A stretch of 48,334 nucleotides of DNA from Pseudomonadota bacterium (GTDB lineage: Bacteria > Pseudomonadota > Gammaproteobacteria > Burkholderiales > Rhodocyclaceae), in NCBI GenBank assembly GCA_018241725.1, contig JAFEDI010000133.1:1-48334 (forward strand), read 5' to 3'. The notes beneath the pieces are model-generated. The model had not been told where the DNA came from, did not search any database, and saw only the letters and a list, made by a program, of their open reading frames with translations. This document shows, piece by piece, positions 12,829 to 42,815 of the stretch. Each line of letters starts with the position of its first letter. Within the stretch, counting starts at the first letter, position 1. Both the position numbers and the translations under genes were made by a program.

Positions 12829-13704
12829 ATGGAACTCGTCGCACTGCGCACCTTCCAGGCTGTGGTTGAGGAAGGTGGCATCCTCGCCGCCTCCCGCAAG
12901 CTGAACACCGTCCAGTCCAACGTGACGGGCCGTATCCGCCGCCTGGAAGAGGAACTCGGCACCGAGCTGTTCCACCGCAAGGGCCGCGGACTGGAACTGG
13001 CTCCGCCGGGCCGCGTACTCCTCGACTACGCCCGCCGCATGCTGCTGCTCGAACGGGAGACCAGCGCAGCTGTCCGCCAAGTCGGCGAGAGCGCCGGCGA
13101 GCTGCGCATCGGCGCGATGGAGACCTTTGCCGCGGTGCACCTTCCCCGCGCACTGAAAGCGGTGCGAGCCCGCCATCCGCGCGTCGAGCTGCGGGTCAGC
13201 ACCGACACCAGCGCCGCGCTGATTGAGCGCCTGCTCGACCACAAGCTCGACTGCGCCTTCGTCGGCGGGCCGGTGATCCATCCTGAACTGGTCTTCGAGG
13301 AATTGGTGGTGGAGGAACTTGTGCAAGTCTGCGCGGCCGGCGCCGACCCGGTGCTTCAACCAGTGATCCTGTTCCGCGAGGGCTGCGCCTACCGCACCCG
13401 CGCGCTGGCCTGGCAACGGGCCAGCGGGCACGCGCTGGCCGACGCGATGGAGTTCGGCACGCTGGAAGGCATCATCGGCTGCGTGTCGGTCGGACTGGGC
13501 TGGACGCTGCTGCCGCGCCGAGTGGTGGAACAATCTCAGCACCGGGCCGACCTGACGATTCGCGAAGTACCGCCCCAGATCAGCCATGTACAGACCGGCG
13601 TCGCCTACCTCCGCGCGGCGCCGCCGATGGCCGCGATCAAGACCCTCGCCGACGCAGCGGCGACGCTGGCCAACGGCACGGCCGAAGCCTCAACCCAGGT
13701 CTAA
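12829..13704 (+). CDS. LysR-family transcriptional regulator
   Basis: 291 residues. ATG 12829 (MELVALRTFQ) is preferred over the in-frame ATG at 12823 because GGAG at 12817-12820 is eight bases from it and only two from the other. The N-terminal winged helix (FQAVVEEGGILAASRKLNTVQSNVTGRIRRLEEELG) is that of LTTRs; effector domain of periplasmic-binding-protein fold from about residue 88 (GELRIGAMETFAAVHLP). It probably controls the divergent MFS gene. Its 3' end overlaps the convergent PPC-protein gene by 15 bases. Confidence 0.92.
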   Translation: MELVALRTFQAVVEEGGILAASRKLNTVQSNVTGRIRRLEEELGTELFHRKGRGLELAPPGRVLLDYARRMLLLERETSAAVRQVGESAGELRIGAMETFAAVHLPRALKAVRARHPRVELRVSTDTSAALIERLLDHKLDCAFVGGPVIHPELVFEELVVEELVQVCAAGADPVLQPVILFREGCAYRTRALAWQRASGHALADAMEFGTLEGIIGCVSVGLGWTLLPRRVVEQSQHRADLTIREVPPQISHVQTGVAYLRAAPPMAAIKTLADAAATLANGTAEASTQV

Positions 13705-14100
13705 AGCTCGCTGGCGCACTACCAGCTCGGCGTAGCCGGTCTGCAGGTCGGGCTCGCGCTGGAAATCCCAGCCAGGCAGGCGCATCAGCAGGACTTCGGC
13801 GGTCGTGCGCACGACACAACCGTAGCCCAGGTGCCCGCCGATCACCGTGCCGGACGCCGTCGCCACCGCCCCGTGCAGGTGGGAACCGTTGGCAGCGATG
13901 GTGCCGCTGAGGCTCAGCAGCTCGATGTCGCCCTCCAGCGCCTGCAACTCGCCCGCGCCAGCCAGACGCAGATGCGCACCGCTCAGGCTGCCGATTCCCG
14001 CCAGCACGAAGGCCGCCGCACCGCCTTCGGCGAACAGCACGCACTCCAACGCCCGGCGCAAATCCTGGCCGGGGGTCAGGCGTATCGGTTGCACGTCCAT
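13690..14100 (-). CDS. PPC (DUF296) domain protein, putative DNA-binding
   Basis: 136 residues from ATG 14100, preceded by GGAG; in-frame ATGs at 14106 and 14112 are alternatives. One PPC/DUF296 domain covers the protein: RLTPGQDLRRALECVL, ELLSLSGTIAANGSHLHGAVA and GGHLGYGCVVRTTAEVLL. The His residues of HLH and GGHL form the metal site found in bacterial stand-alone PPC proteins, which are trimers; in plants the domain accompanies AT-hooks. Function in bacteria is unknown. It follows the kinase gene by 25 bases on the same strand and is likely co-transcribed with it. Confidence 0.88.
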   Translation of the reverse strand: MDVQPIRLTPGQDLRRALECVLFAEGGAAAFVLAGIGSLSGAHLRLAGAGELQALEGDIELLSLSGTIAANGSHLHGAVATASGTVIGGHLGYGCVVRTTAEVLLMRLPGWDFQREPDLQTGYAELVVRQRALDLG

Positions 14101-14125
14101 GCTCATCTCCATGCCGGACCGGTGC

Positions 14126-16144
14126 TCATTCCTCCGGGCCGGCCTCGGTCATGAAACGCCGACGCTCGGCATCCTTGTCGATATGGCTGGCCAGCGCCCG
14201 GCACAGCGTCGCCACGCTGTTGGCGGTGCGGGATTCGCGGCGCACCAGCACCTTGGCCATAGGCCCGATGTAACGGGCGAAAATCTGCTCGACCCGTGCC
14301 AACTCGGCTTCCGGAATCACGCTGACCGCACCGGCCGCCGACGACGACACGCTGGCCGAGCTGCGCGCGGCCGTACCAAGCACGCTGCGCGACGAAGCCG
14401 CCCCCGACACGGGCCCGGAGGCCGCCACCACGCCGGACAGAAAAGCGCTGCGCGGCGCCGGATCGGGGATCATCGCCGCCAGCAGTTCATGCAGCCCCGA
14501 CAGATTCTCGGCCCGCGGCAGGGTCTTGCGGACCAGGATCTTCGCCATCGGCCCGATGTGCAGGGCCAGGATGCGCTCAGCCGCTTCGATGGCCGCCGGG
14601 CTCAGGTCACCGCCCACCGCCGCCTGGCGGATCGACAGGTCGGCCACCCGCGCACTGGCGAGCAGACTGACCCCGCTGTAAGCGTAAAGCTCATGGTCGC
14701 GGGCCTGTGGGTCGCGGCGCAAACCGATGTGGCGGAAGTAGTCGCCAGCATTCTTCTTGAGCTGGTGGATGACCTCGTAGTAAGCCCGCGCCACCAGCAC
14801 CTGGCCGGGGCTGGAGAAACGCATGACCCGGAAAGCCGTAGTGATGCCGTCGCCAAGGATGCGTGAGCGCCCGTTGGGGTCGGGCGCCACCCGCACCGGG
14901 CCGAGGTTGATACCCATGTGCACGCCGATCCCGGCGCCCGCCGCGGCGTCCCCCAACTGAACCGCGGTGCGCAGCGCGTCTTCCGGATCACCGACATAGC
15001 AGACCGCGCAGCCTTCCTTGGTATTGACCGCCAGCCGCGTGGTGGGCGGCACCGGGGCGATGGCCTGGGTAAGCATCTGCACCAGGCGCGAGCGCCCTTC
15101 CCGCTGGGCCGCCTCGTCGGTGGCAGCCACGGCCACGTCGGCGAACAGCACCGCGCCGATGAAGGTGCGCGCCTCCGACGCCGACAGCCCGAGAGGCAGC
15201 GGCGCTTCCACCGGCGGTTCGGACGCCTCGCCGCCGGTCGGCGGTGCCAGACAGGCCCGGCGGAAATCCGCCACCTGGCGCGGGCGCTTGTCCTCGTCCG
15301 GGTTGAGCGCCCAATCGATGGCCTTCAGCATGCCTGCGCCAAAGGCATCCACGTTGCCAATATCGGCAGCCTTCGGCATGGCGTCCTCGCGCAGGCGTGC
15401 AAAGGCTTCCATCGGCAACTTGCCAGTGATCATCCAGTACATCACGCCGGCCAGCGCGTAGAGATCGGTCCACGGCCCCTGCTTGCCGTGGCGGTGGTAC
15501 TGCTCGGCCGGCGCGAAGCCCGGCGTCACCACCGCGGTGAGGGTCTGGTCGATGCCATCCAGCTCCAGCCGGCGGGCCGAGCCGAAATCGAGCAGCACCG
15601 GCGAGCCGTCGGCACGGATGTAGATGTTGCCGGGTTTGATGTCCCGGTGCAGGAAACCCGCCGCATGGATCGCCTCCAGCCCATCGAGCAGCGGCCGCAC
15701 GATGCGCACCAGGCTCGCCCGGTCGAGGGGCAGGCGCCCCACCAGCCAGCGCTGCAGCGGCTGGCCGGTTTCGTATTCCATCACCATGTAGGCGGTGTCG
15801 TTGCCGCGGAAATAACGCAGCACCCGCACGATGCCCGGATGATGGAAGCTGGCCAGTGCCCGCGATTCGAGCAGGAAGCGCTGCAGGCCCCACTCGAAGC
15901 CCTTGGCCGCCTCGCTGGAGCGCGGCCGCACGGCAAGACCGTCGCGCCGCACGGCGAGATCCTTGGGCAGGTATTCCTTGATCGCCACCTGGCAGTCCAG
16001 GTGGGTGTCACGGGCGAGGTAGGTGATACCGAAGCCGCCCCCGCCGAGCACCCGCTCTATCCGATATTCGTTGATGACGTAGCCCGACGGCAGGGCGAAC
16101 AGGTCGTCCTGGCCCGGCCCGGGCGGAAGCTTCTCGTCGCTCAC
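14126..16144 (-). CDS. Ser/Thr protein kinase fused to a degenerate class III cyclase domain and two C-terminal repeats
   Basis: 672 residues, soluble (no membrane helix). Kinase domain about 25-300 with Gly loop LGGGGFGITY, Lys56, HRDIKPGN (Asp168) and DFG (Asp186): all catalytic residues present. Residues about 325-455 match adenylate/guanylate cyclases (AVLFADVAVAATDE, GIGVHMGINLGPV, ILGDGITTAFRVM, SSPGQVLV), but the second metal Asp region reads TKEGCAVCYVGD and the usual catalytic Asn is Thr, so cyclase activity is doubtful. Two related segments end the protein, 515-562 (HIGPMAKILVRK) and 611-658 (YIGPMAKVLVRR), joined by a Ser/Ala-rich linker; they resemble DUF8082-type repeats. It starts 13 bases after the heme-c sensor gene. 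Confidence 0.85.
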   Translation of the reverse strand: MSDEKLPPGPGQDDLFALPSGYVINEYRIERVLGGGGFGITYLARDTHLDCQVAIKEYLPKDLAVRRDGLAVRPRSSEAAKGFEWGLQRFLLESRALASFHHPGIVRVLRYFRGNDTAYMVMEYETGQPLQRWLVGRLPLDRASLVRIVRPLLDGLEAIHAAGFLHRDIKPGNIYIRADGSPVLLDFGSARRLELDGIDQTLTAVVTPGFAPAEQYHRHGKQGPWTDLYALAGVMYWMITGKLPMEAFARLREDAMPKAADIGNVDAFGAGMLKAIDWALNPDEDKRPRQVADFRRACLAPPTGGEASEPPVEAPLPLGLSASEARTFIGAVLFADVAVAATDEAAQREGRSRLVQMLTQAIAPVPPTTRLAVNTKEGCAVCYVGDPEDALRTAVQLGDAAAGAGIGVHMGINLGPVRVAPDPNGRSRILGDGITTAFRVMRFSSPGQVLVARAYYEVIHQLKKNAGDYFRHIGLRRDPQARDHELYAYSGVSLLASARVADLSIRQAAVGGDLSPAAIEAAERILALHIGPMAKILVRKTLPRAENLSGLHELLAAMIPDPAPRSAFLSGVVAASGPVSGAASSRSVLGTAARSSASVSSSAAGAVSVIPEAELARVEQIFARYIGPMAKVLVRRESRTANSVATLCRALASHIDKDAERRRFMTEAGPEE

Positions 16145-16157
16145 GGTGGCGGGCGGA

Positions 16158-17030
16158 TCAGGCGTCGATCATCTGCATCGCCTTCTCGAGGCTGCGACGC
16201 ATGCGGTTGAAGGAACTGGCCAGCACAGACACTTCGTCCTTGCCGCCCTCCGGGAACTCCGGCTGGTTGAAGTCGCCGGTGCTGATCTTGTCCGCCGCGT
16301 CCGACATGCGCGACACCGGGCGGATGATCAGCCAGGACAGCATCAGGTTGAGCACCGCGAAGACCGCCACGAAAACCGCCGCCAGGGACATCATGAAGGT
16401 GCTGAAGGCCTGAGCGGCGTTGTCCAGCGGCACCGACATCGGTACCGACACCACCTGGGCGCCGACCACCTCGTTGAGCTTCCAGCCGAAGCCGTTGGCG
16501 CTCCCATACACCTTGATCATGCTCGGCGGCGCCGCCTCGGGCGAGCTGTGACAGGGCAGACAGGCCGCCGTCTCGATGCGGATCGGATGCGCCACGTACA
16601 GCGCAGGTCCGGTGGGCGTGTCGCGCTGGCCGGTGATCTCCTTGCTGTCCGGCGTGTTGCGGAAGGTGTTGACGAGGTCCGCCTCCCAGTCCGCTGCCCG
16701 GTCGCGCGGGTTGGTCGGGTTGAGGGTGGCTTCCTTGTAGGCGTAGTTGGGGTACTTCTTGTGCAGCTCGTTGAGGGTCTCGGTGGCCGCATAGGCCGGC
16801 ACCGTCTGCGGCAGGAACTGCTTGTCCATCAGCAGGTTGAGGTGCGGCTTAACCTGGCCAACCGTATAGCCGCGGATCGCCAGCGCCGCCTCCATGACCA
16901 GCCGCGCCTCGCCGAGCACCTGCTCGCGGGCGTGGCGGTACAGCAGGTCGTGGGAGATGTAGCCGGCCACACCGAATCCGGCCAGGAACACAGCCAGCAG
17001 TACCAGGTTGAACTTGAGTCGCAATCCCAT
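16158..17030 (-). CDS. Membrane heme-c sensor: Tll0287-like (DUF3365) plus HAMP, no output domain
   Basis: 290 residues from ATG 17030 (MGLRLKFNLVLLAVFL), with GGAG upstream; the frame extends further but without family resemblance. Membrane helix 1 at 7-26, a periplasmic Tll0287-like/DUF3365 domain about 35-195, helix 2 about 205-230 and a HAMP domain about 230-285 (RPVSRMSDAADKISTGDF). The sensor domain holds the heme c motif CLPCH (Cys157, Cys160, His161), so it should carry covalent heme and could sense redox state, NO or O2. The protein stops right after HAMP (MQMIDA), with no kinase, GGDEF or chemoreceptor output; the next gene encodes a soluble kinase, the obvious partner. Confidence 0.88.
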   Translation of the reverse strand: MGLRLKFNLVLLAVFLAGFGVAGYISHDLLYRHAREQVLGEARLVMEAALAIRGYTVGQVKPHLNLLMDKQFLPQTVPAYAATETLNELHKKYPNYAYKEATLNPTNPRDRAADWEADLVNTFRNTPDSKEITGQRDTPTGPALYVAHPIRIETAACLPCHSSPEAAPPSMIKVYGSANGFGWKLNEVVGAQVVSVPMSVPLDNAAQAFSTFMMSLAAVFVAVFAVLNLMLSWLIIRPVSRMSDAADKISTGDFNQPEFPEGGKDEVSVLASSFNRMRRSLEKAMQMIDA

Positions 17031-39405: not shown

Positions 39406-39445
39406 GGTGGCGCTGCCAGCCCTCGCTCAGGCCAGCAGCGCCACC
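39406..39445. terminator. Bidirectional hairpin between aldehyde dehydrogenase and modC
   Basis: GGTGGCGCTG (39406-39415) pairs perfectly with CAGCGCCACC (39436-39445), a 10-bp stem with a 20-base loop. The right arm lies in the last codons of modC. No T-run, so moderate support only. Confidence 0.4.
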
Positions 39446-40509
39446 GACTTGATCTGCGCGACGACCGGCAGGCCTTCGCGCAGCTCGAGCTGTTCCTTCG
39501 ACAAGCGGGTGATCCGCGCCAGCAGCGGCGTACCACCCGCATCCAGGCGCACCAGGCACTGGGCCGGGTGGGCCGCGTCACCGAAGCCGACGACGCGCGC
39601 CGGCAGACGATTGACGATGCTCGAACGGCACTCGCCGGTCAGCGCGATGCTCACGTCGCGGGCCTGGATCTTCAGGCGGGCCCGCTTGCCCACATCGAGG
39701 GCCTTGCGGGTCACCTTGATGACGCCGCCGGGAAAGCCCAGCCGGGTCAGCTGGTAATCCTCGTCATGGCCAACGACCTGGGTATCCACCAGCACCGCCG
39801 CGTCCTCGTCGAGGGCCAGCGGCAGATCGAGGCGGGCCAGCAGTTCGGCAGTCGGCCCACAGGCCACCACCTTGCCCTGTTCCAGCAGAACCATGTGATC
39901 GGCGAGCCGCGCCACTTCATCCGGCGAATGGCTGACGTACAGGATCGGCGTCGCCAGCTCGTCATGCAGGCGTTCGAGATACGGCAGGATCTCCTGCTTG
40001 CGCCGGCTGTCCAGCGCCGCCAGCGGTTCGTCCATCAGCAACAGCTGCGGACTGGTCAACAGCGCCCGGGCGATGGCCACCCGCTGGCGCTCGCCACCGG
40101 ACAGCGCCGCCGTGCCCCGGTCGAGCAGATGGCCGATGCCCAGCAGTTCCACCGCCGCATCCCAGCCGACCTTGCGCTCCGCCGCGGCGATGCGCTTCAT
40201 GCCGAACTCCAGGTTGGCGCGCACCGACAGGTGGGCGAACAGGCTGGCCTCCTGGAACACGTAGCCGAGGGGCCGCCGGTGGGTCGGCAGGAAGACTCCC
40301 CGGCCGTCGTCCTGCCAGCACTCGCCGTTGATTTCCACCCGCCCCGCCGGACGTGCCAGCCCGGCCACGCAGCGCAGCAGGGAGGTCTTGCCCGAACCCG
40401 ACGGCCCGAACAGCGCAGTCACGCCGCGGCCGGGCAACTGGAGATCAGCCTTGAGGACAAAGTCCGCCAGCGGCAAGCGGCATTGCAGCTGGATGCCGGC
40501 GTCGCTCAT
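39427..40509 (-). CDS. modC: Molybdate ABC transporter ATP-binding protein
   Basis: 360 residues with Walker [13 protein letters not shown], signature [16 protein letters not shown] and Walker [13 protein letters not shown], followed by a C-terminal Mop/TOBE molybdate-binding domain (about 290-355: [14 protein letters not shown]). Powers molybdate import. Start overlaps the modB stop by four bases, so translation is coupled. The order modE-modA-modB-modC on one strand matches the standard locus. Confidence 0.96.
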
Positions 40510-41192
40510 CGCGAGCCTCCCAGTGCATTGCGCCCGCCGACGGCATACAGCCCCAGCAGCACGATGAAGGAGAAGGCCAGCAGGCCGGCGGCGAGACCAT
40601 GGGCCTGACCGTATTCCATCGCTTCCACGTGATTGTAGATCTGCATCGAGATAACCCGCGTCTTATCGGGGATGTTGCCGCCTATCATCAGCACCACGCC
40701 GAACTCGCCGACCGTGTGCGCGAAGCCGAGGATGGCGGCGGTGATGAAGCCCGGCCGCGCCAGCGGCAGCGTGACGGTGAAGAAGGTCGCCAGCGGCGAC
40801 GCGCGCAGCGTCGCGGCGACTTCCAGCGGGCGGTCGCCCATCGCCATGAAGGCGTTTTGAATGGGCTGGACGACAAACGGCAATGAATAAATGATCGAGG
40901 CCACCACCAGGCCGGTGAAGGTGAAGGGCAGCCGCCCGAGGCCGAGGGCCTCGGTGAAGCGCCCGACCGCCCCCTGTGGCCCCATCAGCACCAGCAGGTA
41001 AAAACCCAGCACCGTCGGCGGCAGCACGATGGGCAGCGAGACCACCGCCCCGATCACGCCGCGCAGGCGCGACCGGGTGCGGGCCAGCCACCAGGCGATG
41101 GGAGTCCCGATTATCAGCAGCAACACCGTGACGAGGGTGGACAGCTCAAGGGTCAGGCGAACCGCCGACCAGTCTTCCGGTGTCAATTCCAT
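40506..41192 (-). CDS. modB: Molybdate ABC transporter permease
   Basis: 228 residues, about five membrane helices; [25 protein letters not shown] at the N-terminus and the ABC-permease EAA loop ([25 protein letters not shown]). Forms the homodimeric channel with ModC. Begins 14 bases after the modA stop. Confidence 0.96.
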
Positions 41193-41206
41193 CTATCGGC
41201 CATCGA

Positions 41207-42815
<1,609 letters not shown>

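Follow-up and report, generated by a model that had tools for sequence, protein, structure and literature searches.

A heme-c sensor that ends at HAMP and a neighbouring kinase with STAC-like repeats as a probable split receptor kinase in a Rhodocyclaceae bacterium

Three genes on the minus strand of a 48,334-nucleotide stretch of DNA (the window; contig JAFEDI010000133.1 of assembly GCA_018241725.1, from a 5.9-Mb genome assigned to the Rhodocyclaceae) encode, in the order sensor, kinase, accessory protein, a membrane protein that ends at its HAMP domain, a soluble Ser/Thr kinase and a member of the PPC/DUF296 family. We think it likely that the first two form a split transmembrane receptor kinase, in which the kinase would be docked on the sensor through a C-terminal pair of repeats resembling the STAC domain. 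A sequence-only reading of the window had suggested that the HAMP signal is passed to a separate kinase, and the paired adaptor repeat on the kinase is the element it overlooked and the one that makes the idea of signalling in trans concrete. The features of the locus are as follows.

16158..17030, minus strand: sensor gene, 290 amino acids (aa), with two transmembrane helices, a periplasmic heme-c Cache domain (Tll0287-like), HAMP and then the stop
16440..16937, minus strand: Tll0287-like (sCache_heme) domain, sensor residues 32-197 (PF11845, E 7.7e-40)
16548..16562, minus strand: CLPCH heme-c attachment motif, sensor residues 157-161, from the motif in the sequence
16185..16340, minus strand: HAMP domain, sensor residues 231-282 (PF00672, E 9.2e-15, 55.2 bits)
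16161..16205, minus strand: C-terminal tail of the sensor, RMRRSLEKAMQMIDA, a proposed docking helix
14126..16144, minus strand: gene of the soluble kinase, 672 aa, GTG start
15281..16066, minus strand: Ser/Thr kinase domain, kinase residues 27-288 (Pkinase PF00069, E 7.4e-33)
14681..15178, minus strand: class-III-cyclase-like domain, kinase residues 323-488 (140 bits against a model of six sequences from other loci)
14429..14608, minus strand: STAC-like repeat 1 (IGPMAKIL), kinase residues ~513-572, four predicted helices
14141..14320, minus strand: STAC-like repeat 2 (IGPMAKVL), kinase residues ~609-668, four predicted helices in the model of the tandem
13690..14112, minus strand: gene of the PPC/DUF296 protein, 140 aa, accessory

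The output that reads a HAMP relay is as a rule fused to it. The window sensor is built as the sequence-only reading had described it, with a CxxCH motif in a Tll0287-like domain (137.1 bits to PF11845, against a curated cut-off of 24.1), then HAMP, and no output domain after it; the stop comes 8 residues past the HAMP match, so that HAMP is the last domain. Hydrophobic stretches lie at residues ~7-27 and 212-236, and the only two cysteines are those of the CxxCH, which leaves no third cysteine for an axial ligand. The protein is 98% identical to one from a proteobacterial metagenome-assembled genome (MAG) and 84-89% identical to those of Zoogloea records, which points to Zoogloea as the genus. 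Among the 57 PF00672 matches in the window's genome, where alone this base rate was taken and where one match that runs off the end of contig C26 was counted neither way, two end within 30 residues of the frame stop, namely the window sensor and a protein on contig C91. The latter (L405, ~82300) is a membrane HAMP protein that stops just before a frame with the signalling part of a methyl-accepting chemotaxis protein, and because of that next frame it is probably a chemoreceptor that a frame break or an assembly error has cut in two.

The kinase begins 13 bases after the sensor stop, as had been reported. Its kinase domain scores 114.5 bits against PF00069 (cut-off 31.7) and contains GGGGFG, VAIK, HRDIKPGN and DFG, which we take to be the kinase catalytic motifs; since these are intact, the protein is putatively an active Hanks-type Ser/Thr kinase. 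The best match in the PDB is PpkA (5x1r, 5hnv; 39% identity), a Ser/Thr kinase of type VI secretion, to which the window kinase adds a cyclase-like domain and the STAC-like repeats. The extra cyclase-like domain had also been noticed from the sequence and proved to be real by its match to the model from other loci, with no cyclase call by Pfam in the window kinase. An active cyclase is not supported, as residues of the motifs that relatives retain have been lost: the window has NTKEG for the relatives' DTGDG and GDGITTAFR for their GDGINVAQR, changes that presumably affect metal and transition-state residues. The domain is thus probably regulatory in this protein. Across 14 sequences from the genus its mean identity to the window is 80%, compared with 85% for the kinase domain, 70 and 72% for the two repeats and 42 and 32% for the linkers that flank the repeats.

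Each of the two C-terminal repeats spans ~58 residues and has an IGPMAK motif, in which the STAC motif [LI]GPx(x)A appears as IGPMA both times. A model of the tandem predicts four helices per repeat, with a mean predicted local distance difference test score (pLDDT) of 82.3 and a predicted template modelling score (pTM) of 0.42; a model of the full-length kinase has only three helices in repeat 2. The best structural match of the window repeats is Af1502 of Archaeoglobus fulgidus, and they may be homologous to archaeal STAC. Genetic coupling to a HAMP-ended receptor, a trait of stand-alone STAC, was found in loci selected through the sensor. We call the repeats STAC-like and do not file them as STAC because they are not fused to SLC5 or two-component parts; Pfam matched no SLC5 or two-component family in the window kinase. 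Pfam offered no convincing name for the repeat in searches with the whole protein, four single repeats and 15 alignment rows (best E 0.059); similar sequences may carry a DUF8082 annotation, a name that appears in no paper of the literature searched. No CbrA-type SLC5-STAC protein was found among the SLC5 loci of the window's genome (the coding strand of L379 and L381 was left unread), and no fusion of the sensor or of HAMP with the repeats occurs among called genes.

The pairing of sensor and repeats is conserved. The window sensor adjoins the sole repeat-bearing gene found in its genome, which, given how few HAMP matches there end their frame, speaks for more than a chance arrangement. Zoogloea ramigera NBRC 15342 has the pair as well (L135). 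Loci were picked by similarity to the sensor alone, and in 76 of the best 80 of 575 confirmed loci an open reading frame with the repeats lies on the same strand within 900 nucleotides (nt); one more lies at 930 nt, bringing the count to 77/80. Two of the remaining three loci end at a contig end, and the third (L206) has no such gene downstream and 133 nt of upstream sequence. In these same best 80 the CxxCH motif is kept without exception and a motif like the window sensor's tail is present in 76; similar tails also occur on HAMP-ended receptors of other kinds. Genes were mapped with a simple codon-usage caller. A handful of low-GC loci defeated it and some sensors escaped it (among them those of L131, L205 and the window), and loci missed by the caller were read from open frames instead. 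The comparative evidence at the sequence level thus supports well the part of the sequence-only reading that has the HAMP signal passed to a separate kinase.

Co-occurrence across genomes points the same way. Among 100 near relatives, a short sensor (~290 aa or cut by a contig end) is present in 32 genomes and the repeats in 31, all of them within those 32; in the lone miss (G005) the kinase is cut by a contig end. Six more of these genomes have a sensor match only in frames of at least 422 aa, and the long copies L076, L077 and L098 (the second copy in G090) have what we take to be a GGDEF-like part. In a sample of 369 genomes of the class, the sensor (E 1e-22) is found in 29, the repeats (E 1e-4) in 30 and both in 26 (Fisher p 1.7e-32, a value that ignores shared descent). 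Sensor-only genomes are G369, G441 and G459, in the last of which a repeat protein was later found beside the sensor; repeat-only genomes are G113, G141, G389 and G412. G186 was counted as having both, though what matches the sensor there is a long protein encoded on a different contig. Counted by gene, 27 of the 33 sensors of this sample (the window's own included, and two pieces in G363 taken as one) adjoin a repeat-bearing gene, five do not and one is cut (G369 C355). The five are those of G384, where the repeat kinase lies ~260 kb from the sensor, G369 C143 (cut upstream), G441, G186 and a fragment in G346; the sensor frames of G253 and G363 are interrupted. In a phylum-wide sample the repeats occur in 5/398 genomes at E 0.001, the window's own included, which makes the system uncommon in this sample of the phylum, and the four other genomes hold four sensor-kinase pairs (4/4). 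As a control, six repeat-less kinases retrieved through kinase similarity alone (L084, L085, L086, L087, L089, L099) were examined, and none has a HAMP-ended neighbour (0/6); this count leaves out L088, probably lost to the HAMP filter, and L100, which had no kinase call.

An obvious question is which part of the partner protein is tied to the sensor. The 78 near partners at the best 80 sensor loci comprise 31 with a kinase and a cyclase-like domain, 39 with a kinase and no cyclase-like domain (from both kinase lineages) and 8 with a cyclase-like domain alone. Kinase identity was rejected as the conserved element, since the kinase domains fall into several groups and the repeat-bearing kinases have no one origin: in a tree of 70 kinase domains the repeat label needs five changes, and the approximately unbiased (AU) test rejects a single clade of repeat-bearing kinases (p 1.7e-5; the tree was made quickly and some of its branches are long). 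It is the repeats that stay constant, and the output is exchangeable. At L184 and L194 a single sensor has a kinase-repeat gene on one side and a cyclase-like-repeat gene on the other, so that one receptor may drive two outputs there. As a separate observation, L198 and L204, from MAGs labelled Myxococcaceae, encode a cyclase-like protein that carries three repeats and whose cyclase motifs are eroded.

The repeats also extend beyond this sensor family, which makes the finding wider than the sequence-only reading had it. Weaker repeat matches pointed to 13 small proteins with repeats (L290, L298, L299, L300, L303, L306 and L365-L371), each encoded beside a HAMP-ended membrane protein. About ten of the 13 cases are independent, given the near-copies L367/L369 and L370/L371 and the single family that contributes L300 and L368. 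Pfam confirmed HAMP in 9/9 of the receptors scanned, and 8/9 have a Cache or HK-sensor match (under the curated cut-off in L300, L366 and L367), with no clear sensory match in L370; for the others HAMP was identified by our own model (L369, L371), by the sensor model (L306) or by reading (L290). Five of the small proteins (L303, L306, L365, L366, L367) have weak N-terminal matches to DUF4388 (E 0.0003-0.045, under the Pfam cut-off) in a scan that left out L369 and L371. The N-termini of L299, L300, L368 and L370 look alike by eye but have no DUF4388 match, L290 has a weak ACT-like match (E 0.0028, under the cut-off), and the N-terminus of L298 is Roadblock-like by reading alone. In L298 (2661-4339) the gene before the Roadblock-like repeat protein has weak Ras and Roadblock matches, and the repeat protein is encoded next to a HAMP-ended Cache receptor; a small-GTPase output is possible at this locus.

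A broad repeat model found 40/369 genomes of the class sample at E 0.01. Ten regions with new weak matches were opened, leaving out the weaker places in G239, G288, G398 and G113 C26, and in seven of them (L365-L371) the repeat gene is next to that of a HAMP-ended receptor. L372, which meets a contig end, gave no repeat gene; the matches at L377 and L378 lack a receptor and seem to be due to chance. No receptor was found near the repeat genes of L302, L288, L280 and L296 (partly cut), and a HAMP-ended sensor on a cyanobacterial plasmid (L327) has no repeat gene in the 7.5 kb examined.

Repeat genes of this kind, with no adjoining receptor, would suit a reading in which sensor and kinase belong to one stress or type VI secretion system (T6SS)-type programme without touching each other, with the repeats binding some other partner, such as a target protein, or each other. 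Shared regulation is made possible, too, by the T6SS genes that flank the pair on 4/5 opened proteobacterial plasmid loci and at a few other loci. Both the output and the sensory domain of the receptor are exchanged, however, while the HAMP end and the repeats stay paired; a common pathway would not require this, and we regard co-regulation without contact as unlikely.

How might a receptor that ends at HAMP control a separate kinase? By its motif, heme c would be attached to the periplasmic Cache domain of a homodimeric sensor, and by analogy with other HAMP proteins this domain would change the state of the cytoplasmic HAMP bundle with which the sensor ends. The kinase would dock there by the two STAC-like four-helix repeats at its C-terminus; that the repeats read the HAMP end is suggested by the conserved pairing, the exchange of outputs and the parallel with Af1503/Af1502. 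The state of HAMP would then switch whatever output lies ahead of the repeats, in the window a Ser/Thr kinase followed by a degenerate cyclase-like domain. The repeats may serve as a constant plug, with another kinase lineage and cyclase-like, DUF4388-like or Roadblock-like modules as the outputs in relatives. Two repeats could fit the two-fold HAMP dimer, though partners with one or three detected repeats occur as well. The genes with their domains, the conserved adjacency and co-occurrence, the exchanged outputs and the presence of the repeats beside other HAMP-ended receptors are what the analysis shows; physical docking, its direction and stoichiometry, the kinase activity, the ligand and homology with archaeal STAC are what we infer.

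The HAMP domain of Af1503 is one of those studied best. Af1503 itself lacks a recognizable effector, according to the portion of PMC4834066 available. As described there, HAMP is the only cytosolic part of this receptor, its gene is tightly coupled to the next, and the next gene encodes a small four-helix protein, Af1502, with an LGPx(x)A-type motif; Af1502 differs from the window kinase in being a lone 68-residue protein with no output (PMC4834066). The window kinase, from a member of the Pseudomonadota, carries two copies of the repeat behind its kinase and cyclase-like domains, and the sensory part of the neighbouring receptor is a heme-c Cache domain. The build of Af1503 is found again in Burkholderiales and other Pseudomonadota, where the gene next door encodes a recognisable effector and the adaptor is shared. 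We lean, with modest confidence, towards a wider proposal in which HAMP-ended receptors and STAC-like effectors make up a general two-part bacterial signalling system. In it, a Cache-type sensor ending at HAMP would be read through one or more repeats by pluggable outputs, which would include Ser/Thr kinases of at least two lineages and class-III-cyclase-like, DUF4388/PATAN-like, Roadblock/GTPase and ACT-like modules. STAC would ancestrally read HAMP, Af1502 would be the missing partner of Af1503, and the SLC5-histidine kinases would be a later, fused branch.

An alternative reading assigns the STAC-like repeats to the gating or sensing of a membrane transporter, in the way proposed for STAC in SLC5-histidine kinases, with the HAMP-ended sensor as one input of several. 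STAC was named for its association with SLC5 and proposed to regulate solute transport, and an MgtE-type transporter gene lies in the Af1502 operon (both in the accessible part of PMC4834066); in a cryo-EM structure of CbrA, as the available text of PMC13022988 has it, STAC is packed beneath the transporter. A transporter-like membrane gene, so labelled by sequence reading, stands before the sensor in four same-genus or near loci (L083, L095, L136, L141), and the gene after the kinase in L075 (7839-9281) reads as MgtE-like, as in the Af1502 operon. Yet the kinases studied here have no SLC5 part, the recurring neighbour is a HAMP-ended receptor (in 77 of the best 80 of 575 loci), and neither of the two largest neighbour clusters on either side is transporter-like. 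We consider a transporter role improbable, and the docking of the repeats on HAMP remains our preferred reading. In CbrA and CrbS, STAC lies between a membrane module and a signalling output and is proposed to act as a conformational relay, in one polypeptide with SLC5 input and histidine kinase output (PMC13022988 and PMC5715377, as far as their available text goes), whereas the window has two proteins, a HAMP receptor as input and a Ser/Thr kinase as output. The portion of a 2017 paper that was available describes STAC both on its own and fused to SLC5 together with histidine kinases or GGDEF, and names no Ser/Thr kinase. Among the papers listed from the openly licensed PMC literature searched, none treats the sensor-repeat pairing. 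To judge by that literature, a STAC-like tandem that joins HAMP-ended receptors to diverse effectors in bacteria would be new, though priority is uncertain. HAMP readout becomes testable in trans with soluble parts, and STAC-like domains gain a proposed role.

The signal sensed is most likely nitric oxide (NO) or redox state, by analogy with described relatives. In the available part of a 2026 bioRxiv description (PMC12889525), proteins of the Tll0287 family have a motif for c-type heme, and a Pseudomonas azotoformans protein (WP_033902098) with two transmembrane helices, a c-type heme Cache domain, HAMP and no axial cysteine binds NO and releases it slowly. NO is our first guess because the window sensor shares this build and has no third cysteine. 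It is also conceivable that the heme-c Cache domain serves in redox chemistry or electron transfer rather than gas sensing and that the kinase reports periplasmic redox, as a stand-alone member of the family shows weak NO binding and redox-like behaviour in the same account (PMC12889525). The slow NO release of the P. azotoformans protein and the lack of a third cysteine as axial ligand in the window sensor (8 of the best 80 of 575 relatives have one) argue against this second guess, which we hold tentatively. No partner protein is named for WP_033902098 in the available text of PMC12889525; the window sensor has a genetic partner, and the repeat-bearing proteins offer a candidate partner for heme-c NO-binding sensors of this type.

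The PPC protein matches PF03479 (E 3.9e-23, 82.4 bits, cut-off 25), with 2hx0 and 2p6y as its relatives in the PDB, which bears out its family assignment. The 25 bases reported between it and the kinase apply only to a later ATG; from the first ATG the gap is 13 bases. This closeness, and the presence of a PPC gene after the kinase in 8/15 mapped same-genus loci (window included), would suit an integral third member of the system, for example a phosphorylation target or a DNA-binding output. The gene is absent beside the pair in the other 7/15, however, and when 49 downstream genes on the same strand and no more than 200 bases past the partner were clustered, all 10 PPC members came from the window's genus or Zoogloea-titled records. 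The three-gene order proposed as a conserved unit was therefore rejected as lineage-specific and that part of the sequence-only reading is not supported; PPC is probably not part of the core system, and a role as integral member seems doubtful to us.

The pair lies in or beside T6SS genes (TagF, TssM, TssH, TssB/C, Hcp) in four plasmid records (L322, L324, L325, L326), which come from Caballeronia, Paraburkholderia and Skermanella, and also in L073, L199 and L374; L322 has PP2C and FecR genes as well. Only 2/78 named loci with a called sensor have a T6SS gene in the flank examined. These settings suggest a heme-sensor input to T6SS control in the bacteria concerned, and the pair gives a handle on Ser/Thr kinases of Burkholderiales and other Pseudomonadota, some of which stand beside T6SS genes. 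T6SS control as the window pair's own function is not supported, the window's genome having no match to TssK (PF05936), and is kept for the relatives.

A gene for a FecR-like secreted protein directly precedes the sensor in a 17-member cluster (for example L071-L075, L181, L188, L192, L199, L200, L203, L208, L210, L322), with Pfam FecR above the cut-off in L071 and L070 and weaker in others. This protein is a candidate periplasmic partner of the sensor. Elsewhere in the window, positions 39427-42815 hold genes that we take from their sequence to be molybdate ABC transporter-like, together with a ModE-like regulator.

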